From Hyphomicrobiales bacterium (GTDB taxonomy: Bacteria; Pseudomonadota; Alphaproteobacteria; Rhizobiales; Beijerinckiaceae), in contig CAKNFJ010000001.1 in assembly GCA_930633495.1 (NCBI GenBank), forward strand, positions 1,426,001 to 1,490,000: DNA of 64,000 nt, read 5' to 3'. This document shows positions 37,010 to 57,512 of the stretch, in pieces. Made by a program: the position numbers and the translations under genes. Every line of letters starts with the position of its first letter. Positions within the stretch are counted from its first letter, which is position 1. The notes under the pieces were generated by a model. The model saw only the letters and a program-made list of their open reading frames with translations, was not told where the DNA came from and did no database searches.

Positions 37010-37096
37010 GCCCAGGTGGCGGAATTGGTAGACGCACCAGCTTCAGGTGCTGGCGCCTGCAAGGGCGTGGAGGTTCGAGTCCTCTCCTGGGCACCA
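37010..37096 (+). tRNA. tRNA-Leu (CAG)
   Basis: 87-base tRNA with CCA encoded. Acceptor GCCCAGG (37010-37016) pairs with CCTGGGC (37086-37092). The anticodon stem CCAGC/GCTGG encloses TTCAGGT with anticodon CAG at 37044-37046. The long variable arm marks a type II tRNA, and the T-loop TTCGAGT is standard. Its 3' end is the likely integration site of the element to the right. Confidence 0.95.
37072..37096 (+). other. Putative left attachment site (attL core in tRNA-Leu 3' end)
   Basis: The integrase gene begins 165 bases beyond this tRNA and reads away from it. P4-type integrases commonly recombine at the T-arm/acceptor 3' end of tRNA genes, which they restore. The core would lie within TTCGAGTCCTCTCCTGGGC-ACCA. 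No second copy of this segment was noticed before base 64000, so the right end should lie further on. Confidence 0.5.
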
Positions 37097-39222: not shown

Positions 39223-39307
39223 CTCCCCCTAGATTTAAGTATCCAGAGTTCGCTGCATTTATTCTCTCGTTGCATTCACCCGAATGCGAACGACAGAGGA
39301 CAAAAAA

Positions 39308-39499
39308 ATGCAGCAAGCTGAACCGCTGGCATACTTGCCAAAGCCAGCCGCGCAATATCTGGGCATTGGCCTCACTAGCCTTTACGCCGAGATCAAGGCC
39401 GGCCGGATCACAGCCCGCAAATACGGCCGCCGCACCCTCATTCCCGCGGAAGACCTGAAAGCCTGGCTAGCCGCCCTTCCCGCAAAGGAGGCCGCGTGA
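39308..39499 (+). CDS. AlpA/excisionase-type helix-turn-helix protein
   Basis: 63-aa MerR/AlpA-like DNA-binding protein: LPKPAAQYLGIGLTSLYAEIKAGRITARKYGRRTLIPAEDLKAWLA (seen as YLGIGLTSLYAEIKAG and KYGRRTLIPAEDL) is the standard short winged-HTH. Such proteins serve as excisionases or activators of integrase genes. The ATG at 39308 follows AGAGGA by seven bases; a start eight codons upstream has none. First gene of the rightward early operon. Confidence 0.8.
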   Translation: MQQAEPLAYLPKPAAQYLGIGLTSLYAEIKAGRITARKYGRRTLIPAEDLKAWLAALPAKEAA

Positions 39500-40492: not shown

Positions 40493-40772
40493 CCGCCAGC
40501 CTCATCCGTGCGCTGGGCTCAGCAAGCGCGCTCATGAGGTTTTCGAGCAAATCGCCATTGGCAACGACCTTGCTGGGCATCATCCCCGCATCCTCGAAAA
40601 GCTCGTTTCGCGCGGGCTGGTCGAGCGTCGCGCTGAGCAAATGCCTGGCCCATTCCCCGGCACCACTATGACCGTCAATCGCTATGACGTGCCGCTGATC
40701 GTGCACGCCGAATGGTGCTCGTGGTGCAACGAGAATGTGACCGACGAAATGCTGGATGGAGGCCGGATCTGA
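40473..40772 (+). CDS. Hypothetical early protein with winged-helix-like part
   Basis: 99-aa protein. HPCAGLSKRAHEVFEQIAIG and HHPRILEKLVSRGLVERR look like a winged helix (recognition helix plus wing start), and the tail has a paired-cysteine motif WCSWC. The start at 40473 follows AGGCAGGACG. Its stop overlaps the next ATG, so translation is coupled to the replication gene. Confidence 0.6.
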   Translation: MTSRKADRQPHPCAGLSKRAHEVFEQIAIGNDLAGHHPRILEKLVSRGLVERRAEQMPGPFPGTTMTVNRYDVPLIVHAEWCSWCNENVTDEMLDGGRI

Positions 40773-41629
40773 TGGCTCGCATCCGTTCCGTTCATCCCGG
40801 CCTTTTTACGGATGAGGCCTTCGCCGCCGTCAGCATGGCTAGCCGCGTGCTGTTCATCGGCCTCTGGTGCGAGGCCGATGACCTGGGCGTCTTCGAATGG
40901 AAGGGGCTCACGCTCAAGATGCGCCTTTTCCCCGGCGATGCCGTGGACGTGCCCAGTTTACTTTCCGAGCTCGCCGCTCGCGACATGATCCGCGCTTTCG
41001 AGCACGACGGGAAGCGGTACGGCGCCATCCGCAATTTCGGTCGCTACCAGCGGCCGAAGTCCCCGAAGGCCATCCACCCGCGCCCTAACGAGCTGACCAA
41101 CTTCCTTGCCTGCGACGGGCGCGGAATCGGTGGTCCGCTCAACCATCCTCGCGACGTAACCGCCGCGGATCGGAAGCGCCGACAGCGTGGCAATGAGAGA
41201 ATGCGTCACGCGTCAGCCGTGACACATTCCGAAAGCGACACGGATCAGCCGGGACGATTTCCGACTTTTTCGGAAGTGTCACGCCAGATGGAGGATGGAG
41301 GAGGTAATTCCGTAGCTAAAGCTACGGGCGTGACCGCCCCGGCAGAGCCTCCGGCGGTGACTGCCCTCCCCGTCGACTGGCGGGAACGGCTCTTCCGGCA
41401 AGGCCTCGCTTCCCTGCAGCAGTTGACTGGCAAAAACGAAGGGGCGGGGCGCGCACTGCTGGGCCGCTGGCTGCGCGATGCCCGTGACGATGCTCGCAAG
41501 GTGCTGCGTGCGATCGAAGATGCCCAGGAGCAGCAAGTCGCTGAGCCGGTCTCCTGGATCGAAGCCGCGCTGAAGGGGCGGCCGGCACAGCGCTCGGATT
41601 CCATGTCCTTCCTGACCGCGAGGGCTTGA
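40772..41629 (+). CDS. Phage replication initiator-like protein
   Basis: 285-aa protein opening with MARIRSVHPGLFTDEAFAAV and LFIGLWCEADDLGVFEWKG, followed by YGAIRNFGRYQRPKSPK, a conserved start of alphaproteobacterial phage replication proteins that resemble the O/DnaT class. A long disordered middle leads to a helical C-terminus (RLFRQGLASLQQLTG). It directly precedes the primase-helicase (two bases between genes), so it probably loads that enzyme at the origin. Confidence 0.72.
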   Translation: MARIRSVHPGLFTDEAFAAVSMASRVLFIGLWCEADDLGVFEWKGLTLKMRLFPGDAVDVPSLLSELAARDMIRAFEHDGKRYGAIRNFGRYQRPKSPKAIHPRPNELTNFLACDGRGIGGPLNHPRDVTAADRKRRQRGNERMRHASAVTHSESDTDQPGRFPTFSEVSRQMEDGGGNSVAKATGVTAPAEPPAVTALPVDWRERLFRQGLASLQQLTGKNEGAGRALLGRWLRDARDDARKVLRAIEDAQEQQVAEPVSWIEAALKGRPAQRSDSMSFLTARA

Positions 41630-41631
41630 GC

Positions 41632-43404
41632 ATGGAATTCATCGAGACGGCGAAAGCCGAAGGCATCCGCCTGCGTTCCTGGGGTCAGGGCAACCACAAG
41701 ACGACCTGCCCCCGCTGCTCTGCCACCCGGAAGAAGAAAACCGACCCCTGCCTGTCCGTCACCGTGTTCGCTGATCGGGTCCGCTGGAATTGCCATCACT
41801 GTCAGTGGACCGGCGGCGCCGGAGGTGAAGATTTCAGGCGCTCTCCCTATCGCGAGGTCCGCATGTTCAACCGTCCCGTTCGGATCGAGAATCCCGAGCG
41901 CCCCGCCAAGATGCTGGAGTGGTTTGCCGGCCGCGGCATCTCCGCCGCCACCGTTGAGCGGATGGGGGTCTACCTGACCCGCCAGTGGTTCCCGCAGGTC
42001 GAAGCCGAGGCGAATTGCATCGCCTTCCCGTATGAGTGGGCCGGCACGCTGCGCAATGTGAAGTACCGCGACAACGACAAGAACTTTCGCCAGGAGAAGA
42101 ACCCCGAGCCGGTGCTTTACAACGCCGATGCCATCAAGCCCGGCGAGGATCTGATTTTCGTGGAAGGCGAGATGGATGTACTCGCCTTCATCGAGGCGGG
42201 GCTGTCAAATGTGGTCAGCCTGCCAAACGGCGCCCCAGAGAAGGCTGAGCAATCGGATCGCCGCTATGAGCCACTGGCGACGCATGCCGAGGGGCTGGAG
42301 GCGGCAGGCCGCATATTCATTGCCACGGACATGGATGGGCCGGGCGAGCTGCTGGCGCAGGAACTAGCCCGCCGTCTCGGCAAGGATCGATGCTGGCGCA
42401 TCACCTTCCCAGCCGGCGAGGAGGCGACCACAAAGGACGCCAACGAGTGCCTGATGCAGTTCGGAAAGGACATCCTCCGAGCTCGCGTCGAGAACGCGCA
42501 GCCCTGGCCGATTGATGGCCTTTACGGTGTGGACGAGTTTTCCGACGCGGTTCTGGCGACCTATCGCGGCGAAGGCCCGAAACCCCTGACTGTCGGCATG
42601 GGTCGCGACATGGATCAAGCGTTCAGGGTGCTGCCCGGCCAGTTCGTCGTGCTTACGGGCATCCCGAATCACGGTAAGAGCCGCTGGCTCGATCAGGTGG
42701 CGGTGTCGATGTCCGAGCTGCACGGCTGGCGTTGGGCAGTGTTCTCCCCGGAGACGGGCAGCGAAAATCACATCATCGACCTGTGCGAGATCAAGACCGG
42801 GCTCCCGTTCCATGACGGCCCGACGATGCGGATGGACGAGGAACAGCTCCACACTGCGATGCAGTGGACGCGGGAGCGCTTCGTCTTCATCGACTCGGGC
42901 GAGCACACGCCCTCGATTGATTGGGTGCTGGAGAAGGCCAGGGCCGCGGTGCTGCGCAACGGCATCAACGCCCTGATCGTCGATCCTTACAACGAGCTTG
43001 AGGCCGGGCGCCCCGAGCGGATGACGGAAACCGAGTTCGTCTCGCAGCTCATCAGCAAGTGCAAGCGCTTCGCCAAGGTCCATGGCGTGACCGTGTTCAT
43101 GGTCGCGCACCCGACCAAGATTTCCAATCCCGCCGGCGGCAAGGAGCCCATTCCCGGACTCTACGACATCGCCGGCTCTGCGCACTGGCGCAACAAGGCT
43201 GACGCCGGCCTGGTCGTTTATCGCGACTACGAGGAGCGGTGCACGATGGTCATTTCCCGCAAGATCCGGCGCCAACCGATTTGCGGCCATCCGGGCGCGG
43301 TGAAGTTCTGGTTCATGACCGCGACCCGCCGTTTCGACGCAGCCCCCAACAGCTATCAGGTGCTTGGCGAGAAGACCGAGCCCAACGCCCGCCGCGCAGC
43401 ATGA
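41632..43404 (+). CDS. Bifunctional primase-helicase (Toprim plus DnaB-type)
   Basis: 590-aa T7 gp4/Twinkle-like enzyme. The zinc finger has CPRCS (C26, C29) and CHHC (C54, C57). The Toprim core reads LIFVEGEMDVLAFIEAG near 175 and FIATDMDGPGE near 230. The helicase has Walker A GIPNHGKSR near 343, Walker B NALIVDPYNE near 445, and the later VAHPTK motif. Both activities therefore look intact, which means the element encodes its own priming and fork unwinding. The ATG at 41632 lies two bases after the initiator stop. Confidence 0.88.
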   Translation: MEFIETAKAEGIRLRSWGQGNHKTTCPRCSATRKKKTDPCLSVTVFADRVRWNCHHCQWTGGAGGEDFRRSPYREVRMFNRPVRIENPERPAKMLEWFAGRGISAATVERMGVYLTRQWFPQVEAEANCIAFPYEWAGTLRNVKYRDNDKNFRQEKNPEPVLYNADAIKPGEDLIFVEGEMDVLAFIEAGLSNVVSLPNGAPEKAEQSDRRYEPLATHAEGLEAAGRIFIATDMDGPGELLAQELARRLGKDRCWRITFPAGEEATTKDANECLMQFGKDILRARVENAQPWPIDGLYGVDEFSDAVLATYRGEGPKPLTVGMGRDMDQAFRVLPGQFVVLTGIPNHGKSRWLDQVAVSMSELHGWRWAVFSPETGSENHIIDLCEIKTGLPFHDGPTMRMDEEQLHTAMQWTRERFVFIDSGEHTPSIDWVLEKARAAVLRNGINALIVDPYNELEAGRPERMTETEFVSQLISKCKRFAKVHGVTVFMVAHPTKISNPAGGKEPIPGLYDIAGSAHWRNKADAGLVVYRDYEERCTMVISRKIRRQPICGHPGAVKFWFMTATRRFDAAPNSYQVLGEKTEPNARRAA

Positions 43405-45538: not shown

Positions 45539-45723
45539 CCTCGCCATGACTCAGCCGCGGGCGCGGAGTGGCTTTGAGAGGGCCGCTGCAGGGGTGGTGG
45601 CCTGGCCATCGTGAATGCCGTCCACGACTCCGAAAACAGCGCCTGCGCTTTGACGTCCAGTTCACTCCCGAATCGCTGTTAAGCTGGCCTGAGGACAGTC
45701 GGCGGGATGAACATAGGCGAGCC

Positions 45724-46956
45724 ATGGCAAGGAGTTTCACCCGCGAACAATTTTACAAGCTGGTTTGGTCAAAGCCGCTGACCCACCTGGCGAAAGAGTT
45801 CTACATTTCGGATGTGGCGCTCCATAAGATCTGCCGGAAGCACGATATCCCGAATCCGCCGCTCGGCTGGTGGGCCAAGAAGGAAGCTGGGAAGCCTGTC
45901 GAGCAGACACCACTTCCAAAGGCTAAAGCTGGCGCCGCTCGCGAAATCATCATCGCCAACGCCGATCTGAGCAAAGAAGCCGCGACGTTGTCCGCCGTTC
46001 GCGAACAAGCTCGCGTCCAGGCGTCCAGCGGTGACGACGCCGATGACGCGCCGCAGCATCCCATCATCGCACGGACGCTGGTGGCCCTTCGCAAAGCAAA
46101 AAACCCCGAAAAGGGCCTTATCTCCGTTTCCGAGCGTGGCCTTATTCACTGCACGGTGGCTCCCGCGTCAATCAACAGGATTGCAATCGGGCTGCCGAGA
46201 ATGGCGCGGGCAATAGCCCTCCAAGGCTTTCAGCTTGTCGAAGACGGGAAACGAGTGTGCTTCGCATCGAAAGCCGAATCGATAGGCTTTTCAATCACCG
46301 AAACGGTGAAGCGCGTGCCCCATGTGCTCACGCCGGCAGAGGCGAAGGAACAGGCAGCATACGAAAAGCGAGAGGAGAGGCGTCGCGCCCGGCGGAACTC
46401 TTGGGGCCATGATTTCGAGATGCCGCCTCGATTTCAAGAATGGGATTATCAACCCACGGGTCAGCTCGCGATCGAGTTAGAGCCGGTCTGGGGTGACGTT
46501 CGTCCGCGCTCGACCTTCCGAGACGGAAAGATCCAGCGCTTCGAAACGATGGCCAGCGACGTCGCTGTTGCGGTTGCGGTGCTAGCTGCGGCCAAAACGG
46601 ATGCACGGCTCAAGCAGGAAGCCAAGGAACGAAAGCGGCAGGAAGAACGGGACCGGCGCGACCAGGGTTTGCGGGCAGAGCATATTCAGGAAAGACGCGT
46701 AGCCACGTTCGGTACAATCCTGACGGAACTCGAGAAGCTCGATCGCATGCGGCAGCTTGTGGCGGCGCTAAATTCGCAACTGGCCAGTTCCGAGACTGCT
46801 CGGGTCGCCAATTTCGTCACTTGGGCGAATGACCGGCTCAGCGAGCTTGAGGCGGCTATTTCGGCGGCCACGCTGGAGGAGAAGTTCGAGGAGGCGCGGC
46901 TTTTCGGAGACGACGATGACTATAAGTTCGTTTCGCCGCCCTACTACGGATATTAG
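45724..46956 (+). CDS. Conserved unknown protein with N-terminal HTH
   Basis: 410-aa protein. The first 60 residues (REQFYKLVWSKPLTHLAKEF, then YISDVALHKICRKHDIPNPP and GWWAKKEAGKPVEQTPLP) match a widespread, uncharacterised family with a DNA-binding-like helix-turn-helix start. The middle is disordered and the C-terminus is a long coiled coil (about 285-385). Function unknown. It is the immediate upstream neighbour of the dCTP deaminase cargo and shares its orientation. The ATG at 45724 opens the family's conserved block; the longer frame adds 52 unmatched residues. Confidence 0.7.
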   Translation: MARSFTREQFYKLVWSKPLTHLAKEFYISDVALHKICRKHDIPNPPLGWWAKKEAGKPVEQTPLPKAKAGAAREIIIANADLSKEAATLSAVREQARVQASSGDDADDAPQHPIIARTLVALRKAKNPEKGLISVSERGLIHCTVAPASINRIAIGLPRMARAIALQGFQLVEDGKRVCFASKAESIGFSITETVKRVPHVLTPAEAKEQAAYEKREERRRARRNSWGHDFEMPPRFQEWDYQPTGQLAIELEPVWGDVRPRSTFRDGKIQRFETMASDVAVAVAVLAAAKTDARLKQEAKERKRQEERDRRDQGLRAEHIQERRVATFGTILTELEKLDRMRQLVAALNSQLASSETARVANFVTWANDRLSELEAAISAATLEEKFEEARLFGDDDDYKFVSPPYYGY

Positions 46957-46997
46957 CGCCGCGCTTTAAATCTTCGTCTCTGTGAGAGGGGAGCTCG

Positions 46998-47161
46998 ATG
47001 GCCGGTTCAGTCAAAAAACCGAAGCTGGCGAGCGGCGGCGCCGGCCGCGGAATTCTTTGCCAGATCAAGCGCAGCTCGTAGTCGACGCGGCTATCGCAAT
47101 TAGAAGCGCGCTGGCGAAGGCCACCGCGAAAAAGATCATGCATCAGCAGAGCCGACCGTGA
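46998..47161 (+). pseudogene. Possible frameshifted mini-gene
   Basis: An ATG with GAGGGGAG upstream opens MAGSVKKPKLASGGAGR, then the frame ends after 27 codons. In another frame the same stretch continues as LPDQAQLVVDAAIAIRSALA and KATAKKIMHQQSRP to a stop at 47161, with good coding character. One inserted base or two deleted bases in the GC-rich run near 47030-47050 would join them. It may be a decayed small protein or two unrelated fragments; confidence is low. Confidence 0.3.
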
Positions 47162-47164
47162 TTG

Positions 47165-47211
47165 AGGTCAGGAAATGTCCTCGCCCAAAGCGACAGAGGA
47201 CGACCTGACCT
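47165..47211. other. Two-step hairpin upstream of the deaminase gene
   Basis: AGGTCAGG (47165-47172) pairs exactly with CCTGACCT (47204-47211), and within it GTCCTC (47177-47182) pairs with GAGGAC (47196-47201). The 4-base and 2-base internal gaps leave a structured stem of 14 pairs. No U-run follows on either strand, so it is not a typical terminator. It may be a structured RNA segment or an operator. Confidence 0.55.
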
Positions 47212-47255
47212 AGATCGCTAAGCCGCAGCCGGCCGCCGGTCGAATACCGTTCGAA

Positions 47256-47444
47256 CTATGTCCGAGGTGGTTTGGGGTTGATTGGCGGCGACCGCTCGCC
47301 GGAGCTTTCCGAGCGCTGCGAATCAAACTGCTTATGCCGATTGTCGGAGGATGATGACCTGGTAGACCATTCTTGAACTCGCCCAGCAGCACGCTGTACG
47401 TCTTTCATCAACCAACCTGGCCGTAGGCTTACTTCCGTAGCCAT
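47256..47444 (-). CDS. Short RPGWL-type protein divergent from the deaminase gene
   Basis: 62-aa protein. The start MATEVSLRPGWLMKDVQRAAGRVQEW resembles a frequent short family beginning RPGWLxxDVxxAxxxVxxW found near mobile genes; the rest is Ser/Arg-rich and less conserved, perhaps a frameshifted tail. A strong ribosome site (GGGGAGG) precedes the ATG. It reads away from the deaminase gene, leaving 93 to 123 bases for divergent promoters. Function unknown. Confidence 0.55.
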   Translation of the reverse strand: MATEVSLRPGWLMKDVQRAAGRVQEWSTRSSSSDNRHKQFDSQRSESSGERSPPINPKPPRT

Positions 47445-47567
47445 GAATCACCTCCCCGATTAAGGCTATCAAGGTCTCCTGCCGAGTAGACTCCCACCGG
47501 AATCAGACCGCAATATCTCCGATATCAATTAGCAATAATGTTAGCCAAAAAGGGTGTATGGGGGATG

Positions 47568-49190
47568 AAACCGGCGCTTTCTCTCGTTCCAAATCCTGAA
47601 TTAATTTTTGGTATTGTCGCCCCCATCGGCGTCGACCTCGATATGGTCACCGAGCAGCTCATCGCAAAACTGCGGGAGATGGAATACGCGACGAACGAGC
47701 TCCGCCTAACGAAATTGATGCGCGAGCTGCCTATCCGACAGCCCATCTGCGACACCCCTTACGTCCAGTCCTACAAGGACCGAATAAGCTTCGCGAACGA
47801 AGCACGGAAGCGATACGGAGATGATGCGCTTGCCGCTCTCGCCATTAGCGCGGTGAGAGCTTACCGAGCTCAAATTCATGAAACTGAACCGGTCGAATCT
47901 GGCACACCGGAGGATGCTGGCGAGACCCCGGAAGAGCGGCCCGTTCCGGGACGGGCCTACGTCATCCGGCAACTCAAACGGCCAGAAGAAGTTGCTCTTC
48001 TACGGAGCGTCTACGGCCGACAATTCATCCAGATTTCTGCATTTTCCCCTGAGCGTAGTCGCATCAAGCGCATCGAGTCGCAGGAACGCTCGTCCCGGGG
48101 CGGGTTAGTCTCCGAGGTAGACGCTCACAACATCGCATTTGAAATTGTATCGCAAGACGCGAAAGAAAATCTCGACGACCACGGGCAGCGCGTAAGAGAC
48201 GCATTCCCGCTTGGTGACGTCTTCATCGACGCAAGTACATCGAAGGCTTGTTCGCTCTCACTCGACCGCTTCGTCAAACTGCTGTTCGGGAGTAACGAGA
48301 TCGGCCCAACTCGCGACGAGTACGGGATGTATATGGCGAAGTCGGCTTCTCTTCGCTCTCTTGATTTATCGCGGCAGGTGGGCGCTGCCGTCTTTCGCTC
48401 CAGCGGCGAAATAATCACGATGGGATGCAATGAAGTACCTAAGGCCGGAGGGGGCACTTATTGGAGCGGCGATGACCGCGACCAACGTGACATCGTTGAC
48501 GGCTCAGATCCAAACGAACGCAGAAAAACCGAAGTTCTTGTCGACGTCATCGACAGACTCAAGCGTTCCGGCTTTTTGAGCGAGGAGATTGCTCAAGAAG
48601 GTGACGCATATCAAATAACGAAAAAGCTCCTAGAGAACAGAAATCCGGAGAGTGTATCCGAATCCAAGGTGATGGATCTCCTGGAATTCGGGCGCATCAT
48701 TCATGCCGAAATGTCCGCACTAACCGATGCAGCTAGAAAAGGACTCTCTGTCCAGAATGCTACTCTCTATTGCACAACGTTTCCGTGCCATATGTGTGCG
48801 AAACACATAGTTGCATCTGGAATTGCACGGGTCGTTTATTTGGAGCCATATCCCAAGAGTTTCGCGGCCGAGCTGCACGGGGATTCAATTCAAGTTGAAG
48901 ATAACTCGTCGCCTGAGAAAATTGTCTTCGAGCCCTTCGTCGGGATAGCACCATTCCGATATCGCGACTTATTCGAAAAGGGAAAGCGGAAATATTCTGG
49001 AGGTTTAGCGCAACGGTGGAACCGCGGCGAACGTCGCCCGATGGTCGACGTATTCTTTCCGGCCTACTTTATCGCAGAAACGCAGGTCGCAGCTGAGTTC
49101 GATCGCCTGTTGCAGGTAGACGAGACGAAGTCACTCTCAGACGATCAGGAAGCGCTATCAACCGAACCCCAACCTGAAACGGGTGCCTAA
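47568..49190 (+). CDS. avcD: Antiphage dCTP deaminase (AvcD-type)
   Basis: 540-aa two-part protein. An N-terminal P-loop-like region (LIFGIVAPIGVDLD, no standard GKS) covers about residues 10-200. The C-terminal deaminase domain has the zinc motifs HAEMSA (379-381 being His-Ala-Glu) and PCHMCAKH (406-410). The stretch RDEYGMYMAKSASLRSLDLSRQ before it is typical of the family. AvcD/dCTP deaminases defend by converting dCTP and dCMP when phage shuts transcription, starving phage DNA synthesis. This stretch is visibly lower in GC than its neighbours, a sign of transfer. The start at 47568 has AAAGGG upstream; an in-frame ATG at 47538 has none. Confidence 0.88.
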   Translation, partial: KPALSLVPNPELIFGIVAPIGVDLDMVTEQLIAKLREMEYATNELRLTKLMRELPIRQPICDTPYVQSYKDRISFANEARKRYGDDALAALAISAVRAYRAQIHETEPVESGTPEDAGETPEERPVPGRAYVIRQLKRPEEVALLRSVYGRQFIQISAFSPERSRIKRIESQERSSRGGLVSEVDAHNIAFEIVSQDAKENLDDHGQRVRDAFPLGDVFIDASTSKACSLSLDRFVKLLFGSNEIGPTRDEYGMYMAKSASLRSLDLSRQVGAAVFRSSGEIITMGCNEVPKAGGGTYWSGDDRDQRDIVDGSDPNERRKTEVLVDVIDRLKRSGFLSEEIAQEGDAYQITKKLLENRNPESVSESKVMDLLEFGRIIHAEMSALTDAARKGLSVQNATLYCTTFPCHMCAKHIVASGIARVVYLEPYPKSFAAELHGDSIQVEDNSSPEKIVFEPFVGIAPFRYRDLFEKGKRKYSGGLAQRWNRGERRPMVDVFFPAYFIAETQVAAEFDRLLQVDETKSLSDDQEALSTEPQPETGA

Positions 49191-49403: not shown

Positions 49404-49574
49404 TCAATCGAAGCAGTGGATCGTAACCCACTCCGCTTCCGTCATTGGCGGGCGCAGCTCGCGAGGGTCGCGCGGCTCATCTTCGGGCGGATAGTCGAGC
49501 ACGAGATATTCGACGCCCTGTCCATTTTGGACACGCTCCAGCGCTGCGATGCGCCGATCCAGTTCCCTGCTCAT
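49404..49574 (-). CDS. LxxRLxxLE small protein a
   Basis: 56-aa protein beginning MSRELDRRIAALERVQNG, followed by an acidic VLDYPPEDEPRDPRE stretch. It is one of five consecutive small proteins that share the N-terminal L-x-x-R-(L/I)-x-x-LE helix but not the rest. The start overlaps the stop of member b by four bases. It is the last gene of the leftward operon. Function unknown. Confidence 0.65.
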   Translation of the reverse strand: MSRELDRRIAALERVQNGQGVEYLVLDYPPEDEPRDPRELRPPMTEAEWVTIHCFD

Positions 49575-49771
49575 GCTGCCAGCGCCTGCTCGCCAGGGCG
49601 AACGATGACGCGGACGATATGGAACACGTCGGGGTCGGATGCCTCGATCGCTGCCAACCGTCCCGGCCGCTCAGCAGGGGCACAGTTCAGTACGTGATGC
49701 AGAATGCGCCGTTGGGACAACTTGCCGCCCGCCGCACGCTCCAGTTTTGCCAATCGCTCGTTCAGCCGCAT
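49571..49771 (-). CDS. LxxRLxxLE small protein b
   Basis: 66-aa protein beginning MRLNERLAKLERAAGG, the shared helix motif, then RRILHHVLNCAPAERPGRL. Function unknown. It is directly adjacent to member c upstream (start beside the c stop) and overlaps member a downstream. Confidence 0.65.
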   Translation of the reverse strand: MRLNERLAKLERAAGGKLSQRRILHHVLNCAPAERPGRLAAIEASDPDVFHIVRVIVRPGEQALAA

Positions 49772-49984
49772 TTACGCTGCTCCCTGGATTGCTGGCCTGT
49801 AGCCGGCCGGCCAGTTGATACGGATGATGGGTTCACGGGCCGTAATCCGACCTTCCGCAAAAGCTCGATCGCTTTCGGCCTCGTTCTCTTCGGACGTGCC
49901 GCACAGGATTAGGCAGCGCAGGGGGACGCGAGCACGTCGCGCGGCCTCCAGCCTATCGAGACGACGGGCGAGAGCGCTGGTCAT
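49772..49984 (-). CDS. LxxRLxxLE small protein c
   Basis: 70-aa protein beginning MTSALARRLDRLEAARRA, then a hydrophobic strand LRCLILCG and an acidic segment. It overlaps member d by four bases. Function unknown. Confidence 0.65.
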   Translation of the reverse strand: MTSALARRLDRLEAARRARVPLRCLILCGTSEENEAESDRAFAEGRITAREPIIRINWPAGYRPAIQGAA

Positions 49985-50199
49985 GTGTCAGCTCTCCACG
50001 CTGCCAGTATCGCGGCATGGTGTTCGCGGGCGCCGGGATAGTCTCCTCCGAGCAGCCCGACACCGATCTGGTGAAACCATTCCGGGTCGGCCAGAGCCAT
50101 TGCCACGGCAGCATCTCGCTCGACCTTAGAGCGGACTTTTGATGCCGGCCGGCGCCGCTCCTCTAGTTTGATTATGCGGGCAAGAATGGCGCTGGTCAT
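49981..50199 (-). CDS. LxxRLxxLE small protein d
   Basis: 72-aa protein beginning MTSAILARIIKLEERRRP, then VRSKVERDAAVAMALADPEWF. The start at 50199 is chosen because it gives the shared N-terminus and the four-base overlap with member e; the longer frame adds 12 unrelated residues. Function unknown. Confidence 0.65.
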   Translation of the reverse strand: MTSAILARIIKLEERRRPASKVRSKVERDAAVAMALADPEWFHQIGVGLLGGDYPGAREHHAAILAAWRADT

Positions 50200-50378
50200 T
50201 GCACTGCCTCGGGCTCTTCCAGGAGAGCCAGGCACTCTTCATGCGAGAGTCCGCATAGCTCGACGCGCTCCAGCGGCGCGTTCGGGTCATCGGATGCCGA
50301 CCATATGATGAATCTGTCGGCCTGGGCTTTCCGCGCCTGCTCTAGCCGATCGATGCGGGCGGACAGTTGCCGTGTCAT
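50196..50378 (-). CDS. LxxRLxxLE small protein e
   Basis: 60-aa protein beginning MTRQLSARIDRLEQARKA, then RFIIWSASDDPNAPLERVEL. It overlaps the DUF5681 gene upstream by four bases and member d downstream by four. Function unknown. Confidence 0.65.
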   Translation of the reverse strand: MTRQLSARIDRLEQARKAQADRFIIWSASDDPNAPLERVELCGLSHEECLALLEEPEAVQ

Positions 50379-50821
50379 GGGCGGCCTCCTTCCAATGCCT
50401 CAAGCCTGCGATGCAGGTCCGTCACCTCGATCGCCTTAGCGTGCGCGTCCACGAGCTTGCCGAGTTCGGCCGCCTCCGATGGCGTCAGCTCGCCGCCGGC
50501 AACAGCCTCCATGATGGCCTGCGTCGCCTTGGGCAGGTCGTTCACCGTCTCGATCTTCGGCAGGTCGAAAGTGACTGGCCGGTCGCGACGAACTGGCGCG
50601 AGCCGGTCCATGCAGAGGCGAAGCGCCGTGATATCGCCAGCCTGCGCAAGTTCTACGGCCTTGCGCGTCAAGGCTTCGGCCTCGCCCTCTAGAATAGCCT
50701 CTATGGCGAGCGTGACCTTGTGACGGGCGCCTTTCGGCCGGCCGGCGGGATTGCCCGATTGGCCAGGCTTAAAGAGCTGCGGTTTCTGTTTCCCGCCTGT
50801 AGTTTCAGAAGCGCCGGTCAC
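50375..50821 (-). CDS. DUF5681-domain protein
   Basis: 148-aa protein with the DUF5681 signature FKPGQSGNPAGRPKGARHK near residue 17, a basic loop often found in small proteins next to phage terminases. Its C-terminus ends in LHRRLEALEGGRP, the same L-x-RL-x-LE pattern that opens the next five small proteins. It starts with GTG overlapping the stop of a 50-aa gene upstream. A terminase partner is not seen in the window. Role in packaging is inferred from family context only. Confidence 0.78.
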   Translation of the reverse strand: MTGASETTGGKQKPQLFKPGQSGNPAGRPKGARHKVTLAIEAILEGEAEALTRKAVELAQAGDITALRLCMDRLAPVRRDRPVTFDLPKIETVNDLPKATQAIMEAVAGGELTPSEAAELGKLVDAHAKAIEVTDLHRRLEALEGGRP

Positions 50822-50970
50822 GCCAACCCTCGCATCATCACCCAGGCCACCATGGCGAAGCTCGCCAGCGCCAGAAGTGCGTCACCCCTTGCGAGAGGAC
50901 GCGCGAACAGGCACGTTGCAGTGGCAAACTGGAGCATTCCACCGTGGACCGGATGACGCGCGGCTTTCAT
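50818..50970 (-). CDS. Small hydrophobic protein ahead of the DUF5681 gene
   Basis: 50-aa frame ending GDALLALASFAMVAWVMMRGLA, a membrane-type helix. Its stop overlaps the GTG start of the DUF5681 gene by four bases, the same pattern as the rest of this operon, which supports translation. The ATG at 50970 has a poor ribosome site; an internal ATG at residue 12 is an alternative. It overlaps a rightward membrane-protein gene by 27 bases. Confidence 0.5.
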   Translation of the reverse strand: MKAARHPVHGGMLQFATATCLFARPLARGDALLALASFAMVAWVMMRGLA

Positions 50971-51171
50971 CGGCTTGGACTTGTTGGCGCTGTGCCGCTC
51001 CTGCTGATTGCGGCTTTTATCTGTTTTGGCGGGCTCTTCCTCGCGAAGACTGCCGGTGAAGCTAATGACAGCTACACCCTCGCGGCGTTTCTGGCCGTTC
51101 CGGGTGTCCTCTGGTACACCGCATGCCGTGCTATCGCGTGGGTTGTCAGCGGATTCCGCGAACCCGCCTGA
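50944..51171 (+). CDS. Two-helix small membrane protein
   Basis: 75-aa protein with two hydrophobic helices (LGLVGAVPLLLIAAFICFGG and YTLAAFLAVPGVLWYTACRA) and a basic start. Start is the GTG at 50944 with GGAG nine bases upstream. It reads opposite to the surrounding operon. A holin-like or accessory role is possible but unsupported. Confidence 0.6.
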   Translation: MDRMTRGFHRLGLVGAVPLLLIAAFICFGGLFLAKTAGEANDSYTLAAFLAVPGVLWYTACRAIAWVVSGFREPA

Positions 51172-51315
51172 ATGGCGCGCATAGGGATTTCCCTGCTGTC
51201 TGGGCTGTTGATTGCGTTCGGGCCGCATCCCATCACCCTAGCGCTGGTCTTGATCGGCTGCGGCTGGCAGGTAAGCCGGCGCGCTCCCCCTGCCCGATAC
51301 CTGCGATGGCAGTGA
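51172..51315 (+). CDS. Very small membrane protein
   Basis: 47-aa protein beginning MARIGISLLSGLLIAFGPHP and continuing ITLALVLIGCGWQVSRR, one or two short helices and a basic tail. It starts immediately after the previous stop (TGAATG), and its last 78 bases lie antisense to the end of the 955-aa gene. With the previous gene it forms a tandem pair of membrane mini-proteins. Unknown function. Confidence 0.5.
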   Translation: MARIGISLLSGLLIAFGPHPITLALVLIGCGWQVSRRAPPARYLRWQ

Positions 51316-54105
51316 CAGGCCGGTGGCTTGCGGAGCATAGTCGCCTGCCCTTCCCAGCCGCTCCGCAAGACGCGGTGCGATTGGCGTAGGCGGCCCGGCA
51401 TAATAGAGGCTCCGCGCCTGCCTACCTGCCTGCATATTGGCAATGGCGCCCACGCCCTTACCGCCCGCGAGGCCGAGCGTTGCGCCACCCCAACCACCTA
51501 GGGTCGCGCCGATCGTCGTCATAATGGCCTCCACTGCACGACGCGCCATTTCGCGCATCTGCCCGGCATTTCGGTTGCCCGAGTTCGATACGTTGGTGGA
51601 GCCCTGCGGCGGGACCAACTGCTTCGCCGCGACCGCCAGCTTGCGCATCTGGTTCATTTCCTCCGGCGAGAAGAGCCGAGCCGCCAGGCTCTGCCCCTCG
51701 CCCGAGACGAAGTTGAGAATGCGCTGGCTGAGCTTCTGAGCTCCCATCTCGGTCATGCCTTCCGGCACGTTGGCGATACGCTGCCAGAGCCCCTGCCGAA
51801 TGGCGGCCCACTCCGGGCCCTCCTTGCCGATCAGGTCCCCGATGGCATCCACCAGGCGGAGGTTTCCGGTCGAAGCCTTGTTTCCGAAGCCGAAGATGGC
51901 GGACGAGAGGTCCTCGGGCGAGAGCCGCCGTTCGGACACGTCCATCAAGAGTTTGACCGCGGCCTGCGCTTCCGGATTGTCAGGCTGGGCCTTCGCCCGG
52001 GCCGCGAACATCCGGAGCGCGTTGGAATAGCGCTGCATGGCGGTCAGCTCGTCGCCGGAGAACATCTTGGCCGCGAAGGTGCGGCCGCGCTCGCCGGTGA
52101 ACTCGGAGATCCGCTCGGCAACCTTGGCGGCGCTTTTCGGATCGGCTGCGTCGAAGCCGCTGGTGAGCTTCTGCCAGGCTGCGCCGCGGATCGCGCCGAA
52201 TTCTGCCGAATCTCGGCCGAGGACGTTTGCAAGGCGATCGACGAGGCGCGCGCTCAATCCCGTGCCACCGACGCGGGCCGAGCCAATCAGGAAGTTCGCG
52301 ACCTCCTCATCGGTTGCGCCGCGCTCGATGATGCGCTGGACAGCCCGGCCAGCGTCGTCTCCCGCGCCATTCGGCCGGAAGGCCTGCATCCAGGAGGAGA
52401 AGGCGCCCCGGGCATTCTTCATGGCCGCGAGCGCAGCCTCGTCGCCCGTGAAGAGCGAGCTGGAGAAGGCCCGTTCGAGCTGGTCGTCAAAGGCCTCGAT
52501 GATGCCGCGCATCGCCCGAGCGTCAGCCGGGTTGGCCTTGGCGTCCTTGTATCCGGCGATGATGATTTTCCGGGCCTGCTCGATTCCGCGCAGGTTGACG
52601 CCCGCGATTTCCTGACCGGGCGTCGGATTACCGATGCGGCCGAGATTGAGGCTGGCAATGCGGTCCAGCTCGTTGAGCGTCTTCGCTGCGATGGGCGTTG
52701 TCGCTCGATCGGGAATGATCGGTTCGGCGCGATTGAGGAGGCCTTCCTGAATGCGCTTCGAAATCGGCGCCGCAAAGTCGTTCGCCGCTGCACCGGGCGC
52801 CATGACTCCATTCTGTCCCGGCCTCGCCATGCCGGTGAAGAACTCGGGCGCAATCTCTCCCTGCTTGGAAAAGGCGTCTCGATAGGCCTCATTGTATTTC
52901 AGCTTGCCGCGAGCGGCAGCCGAGCGCGTGGCCTCCGCGACGAAGCCGCCGGCATCGACCGGGGACACATCCATCGGATTGAAGCGCCTCGCCATGGTGT
53001 CAGAAGCATCCTGCACGGTCCCTGTGAGGCGCGCCTGCTTGGCCTCCCACGTCGAGCGCGCACGGTTCGCGAAATTGTCGACTGCCTCCCCGACAATGCC
53101 GCCAGCGTCGCCCGGCCGGGCAAGGTCGACCTGACCACGGCCAGCCGTCGAACCGATGCTGTCCCGAGCCTCGAGAATTTTCCCGCGTTGCGCCTCAATG
53201 GCTTCCTGCGCGACGCGCTGGGCTCGATCACCATAGGCGCCGCCGGCCATCGCGTTCTCGCGGCCCATCATCGCGGGATCTGCTGCGCGCTGGCCTCGCG
53301 TAAGAGGAATGCCCAACTCATCGGCGGCCTGTGCGCCCGGAAGTGTCTGTGCAGGATTGCGACCGAGGCGGCTTGCGACGCCACCGAGAGCCGCGCCCAA
53401 GGCTCCCCCGACAAGCGCGCCACCAGTACCGCCCTGAGCGGCTGCAAGAGCCTTGTCCGCTATCCCGCCATCATTCTCGATAGCACCGGTCAAAGCGCCG
53501 TAAACTCCGCCAGTCGCGGCAGCATTGATTGCCGCTGCACCGCGAGCACCCTCGCGGACTGCATTGATGCCGGGCAGAAGTGCAGCAGTTGCGCCGAAGC
53601 CCCCGACCTGCCCCATAAGCCGAGAGCCAGGGTTCAGCGCTTCGTCGGCTGCGTCCATCGCCCGCTCGCGGGCCAGGTTGTCGGCATAGCGCTCGCTGAA
53701 GCTATCGCCGTTGCCGGCGCCGAAAGCCGCGTCACCCGCAGCCGCCAGCTTGTCCATGCCGGGCACCCACGAGGCGACGCCGCGCATATACGCATCAACG
53801 CGACCGAGGGGGCTGGCCTTGTCCTGCTGGAGCCGAGTGCGAACGGCGTCGGCAAGGTACTCACCATCCCGCAACTGCGTGTCGGAGCCTTCGCGCTCTG
53901 CTCTTGTCGCGAAACCGGACGGAGCCGCACCGCCGCCAGGCTGCCGGTTTGGCGCGACCGTTACGACGAGCGGGCCGCTGCCGGTATCCTGCGGAATACC
54001 GGACGGGGCGTCGAACTGGTCGAAGACGTTTCCTCCGTTGGAGGATGTCCCCCGCTTTGGCGCGGCGGCAGGCTGGTCGAACTGATCGAAGACGTTACCC
54101 GCCAT
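51238..54105 (-). CDS. Large internal virion / DNA-ejection protein
   Basis: 955-aa phage protein. The N-terminus repeats FDQFD twice (NVFDQFDQP and NVFDQFDAPSG), as in ejection proteins of alphaproteobacterial podovirus-like phages. A Gly/Ala-rich zone (PGINAVREGARGAAAI, GGALVGGALGAALGG) could form membrane-inserting helices. About residues 620-840 hold two tandem copies of one unit, each with an AIRxxxWQ(K/R) motif. The start at 54105 is two bases from the upstream gene's stop; the longer frame adds unrelated residues. Role is inferred from its place beside the transglycosylase and gp7-like genes. Confidence 0.7.
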   Translation of the reverse strand: MAGNVFDQFDQPAAAPKRGTSSNGGNVFDQFDAPSGIPQDTGSGPLVVTVAPNRQPGGGAAPSGFATRAEREGSDTQLRDGEYLADAVRTRLQQDKASPLGRVDAYMRGVASWVPGMDKLAAAGDAAFGAGNGDSFSERYADNLARERAMDAADEALNPGSRLMGQVGGFGATAALLPGINAVREGARGAAAINAAATGGVYGALTGAIENDGGIADKALAAAQGGTGGALVGGALGAALGGVASRLGRNPAQTLPGAQAADELGIPLTRGQRAADPAMMGRENAMAGGAYGDRAQRVAQEAIEAQRGKILEARDSIGSTAGRGQVDLARPGDAGGIVGEAVDNFANRARSTWEAKQARLTGTVQDASDTMARRFNPMDVSPVDAGGFVAEATRSAAARGKLKYNEAYRDAFSKQGEIAPEFFTGMARPGQNGVMAPGAAANDFAAPISKRIQEGLLNRAEPIIPDRATTPIAAKTLNELDRIASLNLGRIGNPTPGQEIAGVNLRGIEQARKIIIAGYKDAKANPADARAMRGIIEAFDDQLERAFSSSLFTGDEAALAAMKNARGAFSSWMQAFRPNGAGDDAGRAVQRIIERGATDEEVANFLIGSARVGGTGLSARLVDRLANVLGRDSAEFGAIRGAAWQKLTSGFDAADPKSAAKVAERISEFTGERGRTFAAKMFSGDELTAMQRYSNALRMFAARAKAQPDNPEAQAAVKLLMDVSERRLSPEDLSSAIFGFGNKASTGNLRLVDAIGDLIGKEGPEWAAIRQGLWQRIANVPEGMTEMGAQKLSQRILNFVSGEGQSLAARLFSPEEMNQMRKLAVAAKQLVPPQGSTNVSNSGNRNAGQMREMARRAVEAIMTTIGATLGGWGGATLGLAGGKGVGAIANMQAGRQARSLYYAGPPTPIAPRLAERLGRAGDYAPQATGLSLPSQVSGRGSAPAYLPAAADQDQR

Positions 54106-54106
54106 C

Positions 54107-56497
54107 TTACTGCCCCAGCACGCTAGCGGCTGCACCACGACCATATTTCGCGTCGAACTGGTCGCGAGCGCCTGGATTTGCCCTCAGGAACTCAACCGCT
54201 TCCGGCGGCGCCATGGCGGCCTGTGGACGCGGCGCAGGCTGGTTCCCGCTCTGCCCACGCTTCTCCGGGCTCTTGTAGTAATCGCCACCGCGAAGCTCTT
54301 TCGCTCGCTGCTGGTCGAATGCCAGATGGCGCTCCGCCGCCGCAATGGCACGATCCAGAATTTTAACGCGGAGGTCGTGTGGAAGATTGGCCGAGCCCTG
54401 CACGTCCAGCATAATCTTGCGCTCGCCTTCGGTCGGATTGCCGCCAAATGTGAGTTTGAGCTGCGCGAGAGCGTTGGTCGTGATGAGGTTGTTATATTCG
54501 GTCGTCGCCTGGCCGGCGTCGCTTCCGAATGTCCCCGTTACCATACCGCGAACGCCCGCTGTGGGGCCTTCATAGGCCCTGGCCGACAGCTCTTTGGCCT
54601 GCCGAAGATTGCTTATGACGGTCTGGCTTGAGAGGACCTTTTCATCCGCCTCAAGGATAGCCTTCTTGTCCGTCGCAGTGAGCGGCCCCATGTCCTCGCG
54701 CGGCATCTTGCCGGTAAGGATATAGCCCTGATAGCCGGGGTCTCCGGGCTTCAGTCCTGCCCGAACTGCTGCGCGCTCGCGCCCGGCCGTCTCCTCCTCG
54801 GGAGTGACCTTGCTCTTTTCCTTCGCGTACTCGGCCGGGTTCTTGGCGTCCGTCCAGCCCATCCCCTTCGCGTACATGAACTCTTTGACGCTATCGGGCG
54901 CCTTGGACTGCTCCAGAGCCTCCTTCAGGAAAATCTCGCCAACGGCGCGGGCGTTCGCCGGGAGGTTGGGATTGGCAAGCGCCGTAGCAATTTGCCCGAT
55001 CCTGCCTTTCCTCGCTTCCATCGCGCGCGTCTCGCGGTACTCCAGTGCTTCCTGTCCGTTGGTGGGGCGAGGAAGCTCAGCGCTGGCGACTGGGGCGGCG
55101 GGCGCAGCCGGTTGAGGCTGCCGGCTGACCGGCGCGGGCATGGCCCCCTGCGCCGGGACAGCGCCGCGCGCGGGAACATCGGAGGCCCCGGCGGGAGGTG
55201 GCGCAGGTGCAGGATTTCCGAGAGACGGAAGAGTGCGGGTCACCCCGAAATTGTCGGAGACGCGCGATACCTGAGAGCCCGATGAAAGGCCGCGCCGCGC
55301 TTCCTCGCTAGCCACCAACCCGCGAAGCTGGCCGGCATCATTCGAATTCGGATCGATGTCGACCGCTCCAGCCCGATCAATGGGCGGCACCTGCCCAATG
55401 GCGGGAGTAGCGCCTTGGGCGGGGAGATCAGCACGCAGATCCATCGGGCGAGATGGCGGGAGGATTTGGGCCTGCGGAGCAGTCGTCGTGCCCCTGCCGA
55501 GATTGGCGAGAGCGCTGCCCATCCAAGGCTGTGAAACGCCTTCCGCCTCGAATGCCGGGCGAAGGGGCGGCTCTCCCGAGGCGATGGCGTCGAAGGTGCG
55601 GCCCGTCATCGCCGGCTGGCCGGGAACGGCGAAGCCCTGGCCGCCGGTATCCAGCGACGCATTCGCGGAGCCAGGCGCCGGCACATCGGCAGAGGCTGTC
55701 CGCACTCCAGAGGAGCGAGCCCCAAGCTGGAGATAGTCCATCAGGGATGTGCCATTGGCGTCGCTCGGATTGTATTGCCCTCGGGTCTCAATGAACCGCT
55801 GAAGGCCCTTCTTCCCGCCGAGATGCGCGACCGCACGAAGGCCGTCAGCCGTGATAGGAATCCCGTTGATGCTCTGGCCGATGAGCCGGTCATAGCCATT
55901 GGCGCGAATGGACTGGTCGATGTCCGAGAAGTGCCAATTCTCAGCGGCCCGCTGGAGATCTGGCGAGCGCATGAACTGATCCGGCGTCGTTCCCTGCGGA
56001 ATAGCCCCGGCCGCTGCGGCTTCTTGCAAACGAGCCTGCCCGAACTGAGCACGGCCGAAGTGCCCGCGAGCGCCGCCGGCCCCTACTTCGTTGTTCCGCG
56101 CCCGCCAGTTGCCGCCGCTCTCGCTCGCGTTAAGCGCTGCCGGCAATGCCGAGCCGGTCGGTCCAGAAGCAGAGGTGCCCTGTCCCAAGGGCGCCAAGCC
56201 CTCGGAGCCCTGGCCGCCTATGCCGAGCCCGCCAATCGCTGCGCCGAGGCCTCGGGCTGCCTCCTGGCCAAGCTGCTTGTTCTGGGCATCCTGCCCCAAC
56301 TTCAGAAAGGTGGCCGCGTTGCCGATATCACCCAAGGCCAGCAACTTGCCGGCGACGGCGTTGTAATTGCCGGCCTGTATGTCGGGCCCGAATTCCGCAA
56401 TCTCGTCGCGGCGCCGCCTCTCTTGGATGGTCTTGCCGAGATTGTTGAGGGCGCTATTGAGCCCAGCGAACGAGTTTGAGAAGTCGAACGCCGCCAT
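54107..56497 (-). CDS. Internal virion protein with lytic transglycosylase domain
   Basis: 796-aa phage protein. A helical N-terminus (MAAFDFSNSFAGLNSALNNL) precedes a transglycosylase-like domain at about residues 118-260: catalytic Glu 126 in NASESGGNW, then GHFGRAQFGQARL, IPITADGLRAVAHLGG and YNPSDANGTSLMDYLQLG. The rest is a Pro-rich linker and a helical C-terminus. Such proteins cut peptidoglycan as phage DNA is delivered. It overlaps the upstream gene by one base and belongs to the same operon. Confidence 0.75.
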   Translation of the reverse strand: MAAFDFSNSFAGLNSALNNLGKTIQERRRRDEIAEFGPDIQAGNYNAVAGKLLALGDIGNAATFLKLGQDAQNKQLGQEAARGLGAAIGGLGIGGQGSEGLAPLGQGTSASGPTGSALPAALNASESGGNWRARNNEVGAGGARGHFGRAQFGQARLQEAAAAGAIPQGTTPDQFMRSPDLQRAAENWHFSDIDQSIRANGYDRLIGQSINGIPITADGLRAVAHLGGKKGLQRFIETRGQYNPSDANGTSLMDYLQLGARSSGVRTASADVPAPGSANASLDTGGQGFAVPGQPAMTGRTFDAIASGEPPLRPAFEAEGVSQPWMGSALANLGRGTTTAPQAQILPPSRPMDLRADLPAQGATPAIGQVPPIDRAGAVDIDPNSNDAGQLRGLVASEEARRGLSSGSQVSRVSDNFGVTRTLPSLGNPAPAPPPAGASDVPARGAVPAQGAMPAPVSRQPQPAAPAAPVASAELPRPTNGQEALEYRETRAMEARKGRIGQIATALANPNLPANARAVGEIFLKEALEQSKAPDSVKEFMYAKGMGWTDAKNPAEYAKEKSKVTPEEETAGRERAAVRAGLKPGDPGYQGYILTGKMPREDMGPLTATDKKAILEADEKVLSSQTVISNLRQAKELSARAYEGPTAGVRGMVTGTFGSDAGQATTEYNNLITTNALAQLKLTFGGNPTEGERKIMLDVQGSANLPHDLRVKILDRAIAAAERHLAFDQQRAKELRGGDYYKSPEKRGQSGNQPAPRPQAAMAPPEAVEFLRANPGARDQFDAKYGRGAAASVLGQ

Positions 56498-57234
56498 TAT
56501 TTCTTGCCCCCATTGCCATACAACCCGGTGAGCAGGTTGACACCCGAGCCGAGGACGTTGGCCCAGAGGCTCGCCCCGCTATTGACGTTGTCGGTGGCCT
56601 GCTTGGACTGCCCGAGCACGGCGCCGATGCCGGTGTTCGTGGCATTCCAGAGGTTGTTGAGGCCCATCTGGCCATAGCCGCCATAGAGGCCCGCTTCAGT
56701 CGCCCCCAAGCTGGCAAGGCTGGACCCGAGCTGACCCTGCAAGCTGGACTGCGCCGTCGCTGCCTGCTGGCCGCGATCAGAGAGGCCTTGGAGCTGGGAC
56801 TGCCAGTTGCCGTAGTCCTGATCCGCCTCGTTGCGGTTGTAGTCGGCAATCGCCGTCATCGTGTTGCCGGACCCGAGCGCCCCGAGAGCCGATGCTTTGC
56901 GCGCGACGGCGTCGGTACCCTGCGCAACCTTGTACTCGTAGCCCGGCGAGGCCCGGAACTTCGCCACCGCGTCGTCGCGCGCTGCATCCCCGCCGAGACC
57001 GAGAGAACCTTGATAGGTGCCTAGCGCGCTGGTGCCCGCCGAAACCCAAGGGTTAAGCCGGTCAATCGCGCCAAGGTAATTCTCGCGCAGATCGGTGCGG
57101 CCCTGGCCCAGTGCCGACAATGAGCGGCCGAGGTAGTCGTCCAACATCGATTGCCCACGGATGCCGGCATTTTCGGCGGTCGAGTAGCCCCAAATGCCGA
57201 TGTTCCGGGCGCTGGTCCCAGATCCAATAGCCAT
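56497..57234 (-). CDS. Gp7/DNA-transfer-type internal virion protein
   Basis: 245-aa Gly/Ala/Gln-rich protein. FRASPGYEYKVAQGTDAVAR and GSGNTMTAIADYNRNEADQDYG are the marks of P22 gp7/p32-like DNA-transfer proteins, which form part of the channel that takes phage DNA across the envelope. Start 57234 (MAIGSGTSARN) has GGGAGG upstream and overlaps the preceding stop (TGATG). First of the three ejection-type genes. Confidence 0.75.
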   Translation of the reverse strand: MAIGSGTSARNIGIWGYSTAENAGIRGQSMLDDYLGRSLSALGQGRTDLRENYLGAIDRLNPWVSAGTSALGTYQGSLGLGGDAARDDAVAKFRASPGYEYKVAQGTDAVARKASALGALGSGNTMTAIADYNRNEADQDYGNWQSQLQGLSDRGQQAATAQSSLQGQLGSSLASLGATEAGLYGGYGQMGLNNLWNATNTGIGAVLGQSKQATDNVNSGASLWANVLGSGVNLLTGLYGNGGKK

Positions 57235-57512
57235 CAGGCCCTCCCCTTGCACGAGATGACCTCGGCATAGGCCGCGTAGGCTTTGTCAGCCTCGCAAGCT
57301 TCCGTAATGATGGTGGTCAGGCCAGCGGTGATATCGTTACTGCTGGCGGGGCAGTTCATAAGCCCTAGAAGAAGGGTGTTCGCGTTTGCCCGAACGCGCT
57401 CAAGATACAACGCCGTCGCGATGAGGTGACGACTGGCCGGGATACTGGCTGCGACTGCTTCGGGCTGCGCCTCGCGCAGGAACTGCGGAACCTGGACGAT
57501 GTTGTCGCTCAT
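57234..57512 (-). CDS. Hypothetical protein of the ejection operon
   Basis: 92-aa mainly helical protein (MSDNIVQVPQFLREAQPEAV, then HLIATALYLERVRANANTLL). No family recognised. It overlaps both neighbours (four bases with the RHH gene, one with the gp7-like gene), so it is translationally coupled and probably needed with them. Confidence 0.6.
   Translation of the reverse strand: MSDNIVQVPQFLREAQPEAVAASIPASRHLIATALYLERVRANANTLLLGLMNCPASSNDITAGLTTIITEACEADKAYAAYAEVISCKGRA

Follow-up and report, generated by a model that had tools for sequence, protein, structure and literature searches.

Among described systems, those closest to the locus analyzed here are the AvcID systems of Vibrio cholerae and Vibrio parahaemolyticus, in which a regulatory partner lies beside a deaminase. 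According to the excerpts of the published literature on which we draw here and below, AvcI is a noncoding RNA with a transcript of about 280 nucleotides (nt) that is degraded once host transcription stops, the excerpted text states that no terminator is predicted to separate avcI from avcD, and loss of the RNA antitoxin is the known switch for nucleotide-depleting deaminases (PMC10511110). Here we analyze a window of 64,000 nt (G000:C1:1426001-1490000) from the 5.94-Mb genome of a bacterium of the genus Bosea, in which the gene for a putative anti-phage dCTP/dCMP deaminase lies within a phage-derived element integrated at a tRNA-Leu gene. This locus is like AvcID in the type of the deaminase, by name and activity, in the presence of a candidate regulatory partner beside it and, as regards V. 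cholerae, in island carriage (PMC12409362). It differs from AvcID in that AvcI is a noncoding RNA (PMC10511110, PMC12409362), whereas the Bosea locus harbors a divergent small protein gene, a comparison that for V. cholerae is by description only. New here is this conserved divergent small gene, which makes the locus of the window's clade a variant, while the deaminase family itself was already known.

Stand-alone anti-phage dCTP deaminases have reportedly been described for Escherichia coli by Tal et al. in 2022, and relatives annotated as 'anti-phage dCTP deaminase' are found on small E. coli and Klebsiella plasmids, although these share about 32–34% identity with the window protein among the matches listed. 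dCMP deaminases have a metabolic role; those of human (2w4l), S. mutans (2hvv) and T4 (1vq2) as well as the bi-DCD of PBCV-1 (7fh4) comprise 140–173 residues in their solved chains and are without the N-terminal kinase-like domain of the window protein. As to the genomic setting, the hotspots of P2 prophages and P4 satellites share with the Bosea locus a conserved phage-derived backbone and a slot with alternative defence genes (PMC9122126), but the Bosea element is another one, sits at tRNA-Leu and has putative defence genes in its slot. In the literature searched, to which the founding 2022 papers did not belong, we met no small-protein partner of anti-phage dCTP deaminases, which is not a claim that such a partner is unpublished.

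The deaminase gene (47568..49190, plus strand) is an uninterrupted open reading frame (ORF) of 540 amino acids in the ORF listing of the window. An alternative start at 47538 would yield 550 amino acids, but 47568 is the likelier start since most of the 17 rows in alignment A1 start with that methionine or close to it; an N-terminal extension is present in P0001, P0002 and P0003. The original prediction had named the gene an AvcD-type dCTP deaminase and proposed a search with family hidden Markov models (HMMs) as a check. Three models match far above chance: NF041025, the NCBIfam equivalog 'anti-phage dCTP deaminase', scores 452 bits against its curated cut-off of 400 (E 2.1e-135, model positions 1–434 of 437), the PADLOC model dCTPase scores 523 bits (E 3.8e-157) and Pfam PF00383 matches with an E value of 1.3e-19. 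The HAE and PCHMC zinc motifs that had been read from the sequence are present as H379-A-E381 and P406-C407-H-M-C410 (numbered from 47568), so that the residue numbers given for His379, Glu381, Cys407 and Cys410 were correct, and the H, A, E, P and both C of these motifs are invariant in alignments of 17 and 31 rows. The block RDEYGMYMAKSASLRSLDLSRQ that had likewise been pointed out is found exactly, and the corresponding RDEYG...LSRQ block is largely kept among the relatives. With regard to the P-loop-like N-terminus, the proposal was borne out by the predicted fold, in which an N-terminal P-loop-kinase-like domain is joined to a dCMP-deaminase domain, and less so by the P-loop itself, which is degenerate (GIVAPIGVDL); a canonical Walker A GK[ST] was seen in none of the alignment rows inspected by eye. 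By these motifs and scores, the ORF is a member of the known anti-phage dCTP deaminase family with an intact active site.

When the upstream DNA of deaminase relatives was aligned, a conserved frame became apparent on the opposite strand. In the window this frame corresponds to an ORF of 62 amino acids (MATEVSLRPGWLMKDVQRAAGRVQEW...; 47256..47444, minus strand), which the original prediction had not mentioned and which is preceded, just before its ATG, by a near-perfect Shine-Dalgarno sequence read from the DNA (GGAGGTGA; 47448..47455, minus strand). The two divergent starts share an intergenic region of 123 nt (47445..47567) with a G+C content (GC) of 0.48. The small protein matches no Pfam, NCBIfam or PADLOC family. 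Its structural model contains a single helix (residues 11–44) at a mean predicted local distance difference test score of 67, and confidence is low beyond about residue 30; the protein can be described as a helix with a GWL...W motif followed by a variable tail that is predicted with low confidence. In the protein database, 13 matches were obtained among 80 candidates. One of them, P0129, shows 57% identity across 98% of the length and shares 24 of the first 26 residues; it is encoded on a 4586-bp contig, as is the 86%-identical deaminase P0002, and we infer that both lie on the same contig. The divergent ORFs of the relatives form several homologous groups, the largest with 19 and 10 members (duplicates included), and the window protein belongs to the group of 10, whose members have GWL or GWF close to their N-terminal end. 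An ORF clustering in which low-complexity ORFs merged into a group of 53 members is not used here.

To count the small gene, loci were collapsed at 90% deaminase identity into 112 clusters, of which 7 were dropped for flanks shorter than 400 nt and 105 were counted. An ORF of 40–95 amino acids with a Shine-Dalgarno-like word and a start within 160 nt of the deaminase start was scored, and three other positions served as controls. Over all loci, a divergent upstream ORF is present in 58 of the 105, compared with 8 for the downstream same-strand position and 15 and 15 for the distal controls. Among loci with 40% or more identity to the window, the window itself not counted, the divergent ORF is found in 45 of 51 and the other positions score 2, 7 and 8. 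The divergent small gene is thus a trait of the window's clade and not of the whole deaminase family, and we narrowed our claim to this clade because the collapsed count places the signal there. The wider proposal that divergent ORFs are general to most Alphaproteobacteria was dropped; the count of 61/111 (controls 16, 16 and 10) behind it contained near-duplicates. An HMM search that hit 53/113 loci was biased, since its seeds were the upstream-divergent ORFs themselves, and is not used as evidence; these HMMs matched none of the class-sample loci L162–L177. A profile of the GWL type (A2, 15 rows) gave six matches at E <= 0.01 over 385 genomes, two of them strong (the window, 5.6e-19; G270, 1.4e-16), and both strong matches adjoin a deaminase, that of G270 lying just downstream of its own. 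The remaining four, at 0.006–0.009, are at about chance level.

We then asked of the small ORFs whether they change as coding sequences do. Synonymous exceeded nonsynonymous differences (pS > pN) in all 13 pairs compared, two of which stem from the window's own group (L011/L012 and L008/L009). The ratio dN/dS could be computed in six pairs (0.08, 0.10, 0.11, 0.16, 0.21 and 0.24), the other seven being saturated. A frame control was performed on five usable ungapped pairs, with L018/L022 excluded as mis-registered at 25% identity. In these five, changes pile up at codon position 3, with counts at positions 1, 2 and 3 of 6, 4, 25; 5, 5, 17; 15, 10, 27; 14, 12, 32; and 20, 3, 28. Other frames gave ratios of at least 0.70, except for the mirror frame sharing the wobble position (0.19–0.55), which is interrupted by stops in 4/5 pairs. 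Judged by these codon-level patterns, the small divergent gene evolves as a protein in the relatives of the clade.

The slot that holds the deaminase was compared with sibling elements gene by gene using tblastn. In the Bosea genome G018, a sibling sits at the same tRNA-Leu, with 98% identity in the integrase, 85% in the primase/helicase and 94% in a 72-amino-acid ORF, and with 87%, 85% and 54% identity in the DUF5681 protein, the 968- and the 796-amino-acid protein of the right side. In place of the deaminase it carries a protein kinase of 346 amino acids that matches PADLOC PD-T4-6 (E 1.9e-32) and mad6 (E 1e-38), and no deaminase above the family cut-off is found in the G018 genome. G029 has the same flanks and different ORFs in the slot, and in G036 related element proteins flank about 12 kb of other genes, one of them, by our own reading, a transporter. 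Since the sibling in G018 holds a PD-T4-6-like kinase there, the deaminase slot looks like a defence cargo site, which strengthens the earlier proposal that the deaminase is cargo of the element. The deaminase itself is a new representative of an already known family of defence enzymes, and that its slot is a phage-borne cargo slot is plausible, as had been proposed; conflict between phages, which had been suggested from its carriage by a phage-like element, is a plausible setting. Beside this comparison, we observed that the G018 slot (L136:11535-13790) comprises a 168-amino-acid ORF, the PD-T4-6/mad6-like Ser/Thr kinase and a further 168-amino-acid ORF, and that the latter closely resembles a 171-amino-acid ORF in G029 (L138:3532-4047).

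We consider it rather probable that the two-domain deaminase is defence cargo of the tRNA-Leu-integrated phage-derived Bosea element and is held off by the labile 62-amino-acid divergent protein. As suggested by characterized relatives, the deaminase would be inactive in healthy cells and on infection would convert dCTP and dCMP to dUTP and dUMP, by which the phage would be starved of deoxycytidine nucleotides. The 62-amino-acid protein may act as a labile controller that binds directly to the deaminase and keeps it inactive; once host gene expression ceases on infection, the protein would be lost and the deaminase released, and the protein would fill the role of the RNA AvcI in Vibrio. It is possible, if somewhat short of an even chance, that this holds throughout the window's clade (at least about 40% identity; the fetched records are largely from Hyphomicrobiales), whose loci might encode a toxin-antitoxin-like two-protein pair in which a fast-evolving divergent small protein replaces the RNA AvcI and by its loss on infection frees the deaminase. 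Protein partners may even be wider, as is hinted at by a few GWL-kind ORFs just downstream of deaminases in other phyla. Such ORFs, on the strand of the deaminase, occur on two contigs of an acidimicrobial metagenome-assembled genome (MAG), in a Nitrosopumilus MAG and also in G270.

Several points weigh against this proposal. The putative partner role of the small protein rests on guilt by association, and the small ORFs split into several sequence groups whose common origin is unproven. Among loci less than 40% identical to the window, the divergent ORF is found in 11 of 46 (other positions 6, 7 and 6), and the even genome samples of the class and of the phylum yielded 2/13 each. Of the 17 class-sample genomes with a deaminase at E <= 1e-60, only two have a strong GWL match. 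The motif RPETRRGPYVI of the Rhizobium-type small proteins also occurs inside a viral-contig protein of 297 amino acids, with no deaminase in the 8 kb of that contig that were covered. The 13 pairs of the coding test were hand-picked from similar ORFs and some share loci; moreover, ten control ORF pairs gave ratios from 0.12 to 1.99, and since five of these are also below 0.8 (0.12, 0.15, 0.53, 0.55 and 0.75), single ratios are not to be over-read. Finally, plasmids of E. coli, Klebsiella and Photobacterium possess a same-strand ORF of about 60 amino acids upstream of the deaminase whose coding signal is weak (pN/pS 0.49 and 0.73), and this would agree with an RNA antitoxin there.

A classical type III arrangement, in which a structured same-strand RNA upstream of the Bosea gene inhibits the deaminase and the small protein is something else, appears unlikely to us. 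It has in its favor that the characterized AvcI is an RNA beside avcD that binds and inhibits AvcD (PMC10511110, PMC12409362), and the 611 nt upstream of the Bosea gene (46957-47567) would leave space for it, being without a complete plus-strand ORF of at least 60 amino acids. Yet this region has no Rfam match at E <= 1, the 303 nt directly upstream of the deaminase fold like their shuffles (z -0.27) and for the 308 nt before those the gain over shuffles is modest (z -1.92). The feature that the deaminase relatives have kept upstream is the divergent coding frame. It is equally improbable, in our estimate, that the small protein serves as an activator, a phage sensor or a chaperone of the deaminase instead of an inhibitor. 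The clade-wide position of the gene suits any dedicated partner equally, and the fast change beyond the N-terminal helix would be in keeping with a protein that senses phage proteins; on the other hand, the only characterized partner of the family that we encountered in the excerpted literature is an inhibitor (PMC10511110, PMC12409362), and AvcD over-produced without AvcI is harmful (PMC9455884). Very unlikely, and less likely than defence, is a role of the deaminase in the nucleotide metabolism of the element, supplying dUMP for dTTP like T4 cd: its catalytic domain has the predicted fold of dCMP deaminases and such enzymes are common in phage records (1284 records with a match, two of which span 80% or more of the query), but the 540-amino-acid two-domain form exceeds the anti-phage equivalog cut-off and the slot of the sibling element carries a defence-type kinase.

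If the clade is indeed held in check by a small protein, one-gene annotations, such as the single NCBIfam and PADLOC model match obtained here, would leave out half of the locus, experiments on the deaminase without its partner might give a misleading picture, and the small partner could be a target of phage counter-defence proteins. The conserved divergent small gene yields a directly testable hypothesis. The Bosea locus also reveals a phage-derived element that has no megablast match among phage records and whose variable slot is probably one for defence genes.

The deaminase family is large (of 7998 candidates scored, 5836 reach E <= 1e-10), and its spread is sporadic. Counting the window, a deaminase above the family cut-off is present in 2/61 near genomes, 14/385 sampled Alphaproteobacteria and 11/398 genomes of the phylum. 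Among the best 120 of the 5836 relatives, which were those listed, the nearest after the window's own entry is P0002 with 86% identity, and the following ones reach at most 64%. On viral contigs, a relative is encoded in 9 of 15 matching stretches, and the upstream DNA of the viral-contig loci L084, L085 and L087 is identical to that of the genome loci L004, L014 and L036. Of 62 matching plasmid records, 46 span 80% or more of the query. The two phage records with this coverage are both unannotated 5-kb faecal contigs, and the other 38 phage rows among the matches listed are mostly annotated as dCMP or deoxycytidylate deaminase. The gene has a GC of 0.537 (0.571 at third codon positions), compared with 0.624 for the element (37097-57300) and 0.674 for the host flank (1-36900). 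Recent transfer, which had been proposed from the lower GC relative to the neighbors, is therefore supported by the low GC of the gene together with its sporadic distribution, which includes viral contigs and plasmids. A second, diverged deaminase copy was noted in Bosea lathyri (G006:C13:167882-169225, in L142), with one in-frame TAA reported.

Some further observations concern small ORFs outside the window's clade. Plasmid loci have the divergent ORF in 1/10 cases. The loci L150, L151, L152, L155, L156 and L161 contain a same-strand ORF of about 60 amino acids where the AvcI RNA would lie, and all of these ORFs but that of L150 end in I/L-x-W. A phage protein of 297 amino acids (L202:3572-4465) has RPETRRGPYVITDEDI, typical of the Rhizobium-type small partner proteins; single-protein searches of viral contigs with two other small-protein queries found nothing.

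The host belongs to the genus Bosea, and the same-genus genome G006 is identical to Bosea lathyri DSM 26656 over 17,231 compared bases. The integration site of the element is a tRNA-Leu gene with the anticodon CAG (37010..37096, plus strand), and left-flank alignments end at 37097 in seven Bosea genomes. The region 35700-37170 has a match in 41/41 Bosea genomes searched, in G027 only at the level of the tRNA. Of the 12 fetched Bosea loci, seven end at 37097, the base after the tRNA, which marks an empty site, four run on to the end of the query on the integrase side and one is the window. An integrase at least 92% identical occurs at the same tRNA in G018, G029 and G063, and a piece of 123 residues in G016. 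On the plus strand follow the tyrosine integrase (37262..38452; phrog_1, E 1.8e-64), an excisionase-like protein (39284..39499; phrog_66, E 3.1e-7), a replication initiation protein (40712..41629; phrog_1408, E 1.8e-29) and a primase/helicase (41626..43404; phrog_239, E 3.3e-94). The tRNA-Leu element of phage-like nature that had been proposed is thus recovered with its tRNA and its integrase. Left of the deaminase, the variable slot contains an accessory ORF of 425 amino acids (45679..46956, plus strand) with one weak Pfam match below the cut-off and no PHROG or PADLOC match at E 0.01. The right block lies on the minus strand and consists of small ORFs and a DUF5681 protein (49571..51228; PF18932, E 4.5e-14), common to G018 and in part to G029, followed by a protein of 968 amino acids without family assignment, an endolysin-like protein of 796 and a DNA-ejection-like protein of 251 amino acids (51238..57252; phrog_26675, E 1e-34, and phrog_598, E 2e-18).

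No terminase, portal or capsid gene was recognized among the subset of window ORFs compared with PHROGs. A second attachment site was sought by comparing 37041-37262 with the DNA that runs from 37300 to a point 37 kb beyond the window, and no same-strand word of at least 13 nt common to both was found; blastn of the region gave chance-level matches only (E 0.5 or worse), and the sequence that follows the empty site in G012 was not located beside the element in G000. Since neither these genes nor a second attachment site was found, the element is aptly called 'phage-like'. When 36900-61800 was compared by megablast with 50,697 phage records, no match was returned. The elements of three Bosea genomes (window 37010-57252; G018, L136/L137; G036, L144/L145) have common replication genes and the 968-amino-acid and endolysin-like proteins, and two of them have the ejection-like protein. 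For the G018 and G036 elements no terminase, portal or capsid was seen either, their ORF lists having been read while the systematic search covered the window ORFs; the three elements may be satellites or a recurring remnant. About 1–9 kb past the right end of the window lie ORFs that by our own reading resemble IS66- and IS21-type transposases (L093:2412-4901 and 7683-10056), which perhaps explain the loss of the right boundary of the element. An ORF of 244 amino acids across the right end of the window (L093:711-1445) matches phrog_1599, a family of unknown function, with an E value of 3.5e-56, and phage-type genes may extend past 57 kb.
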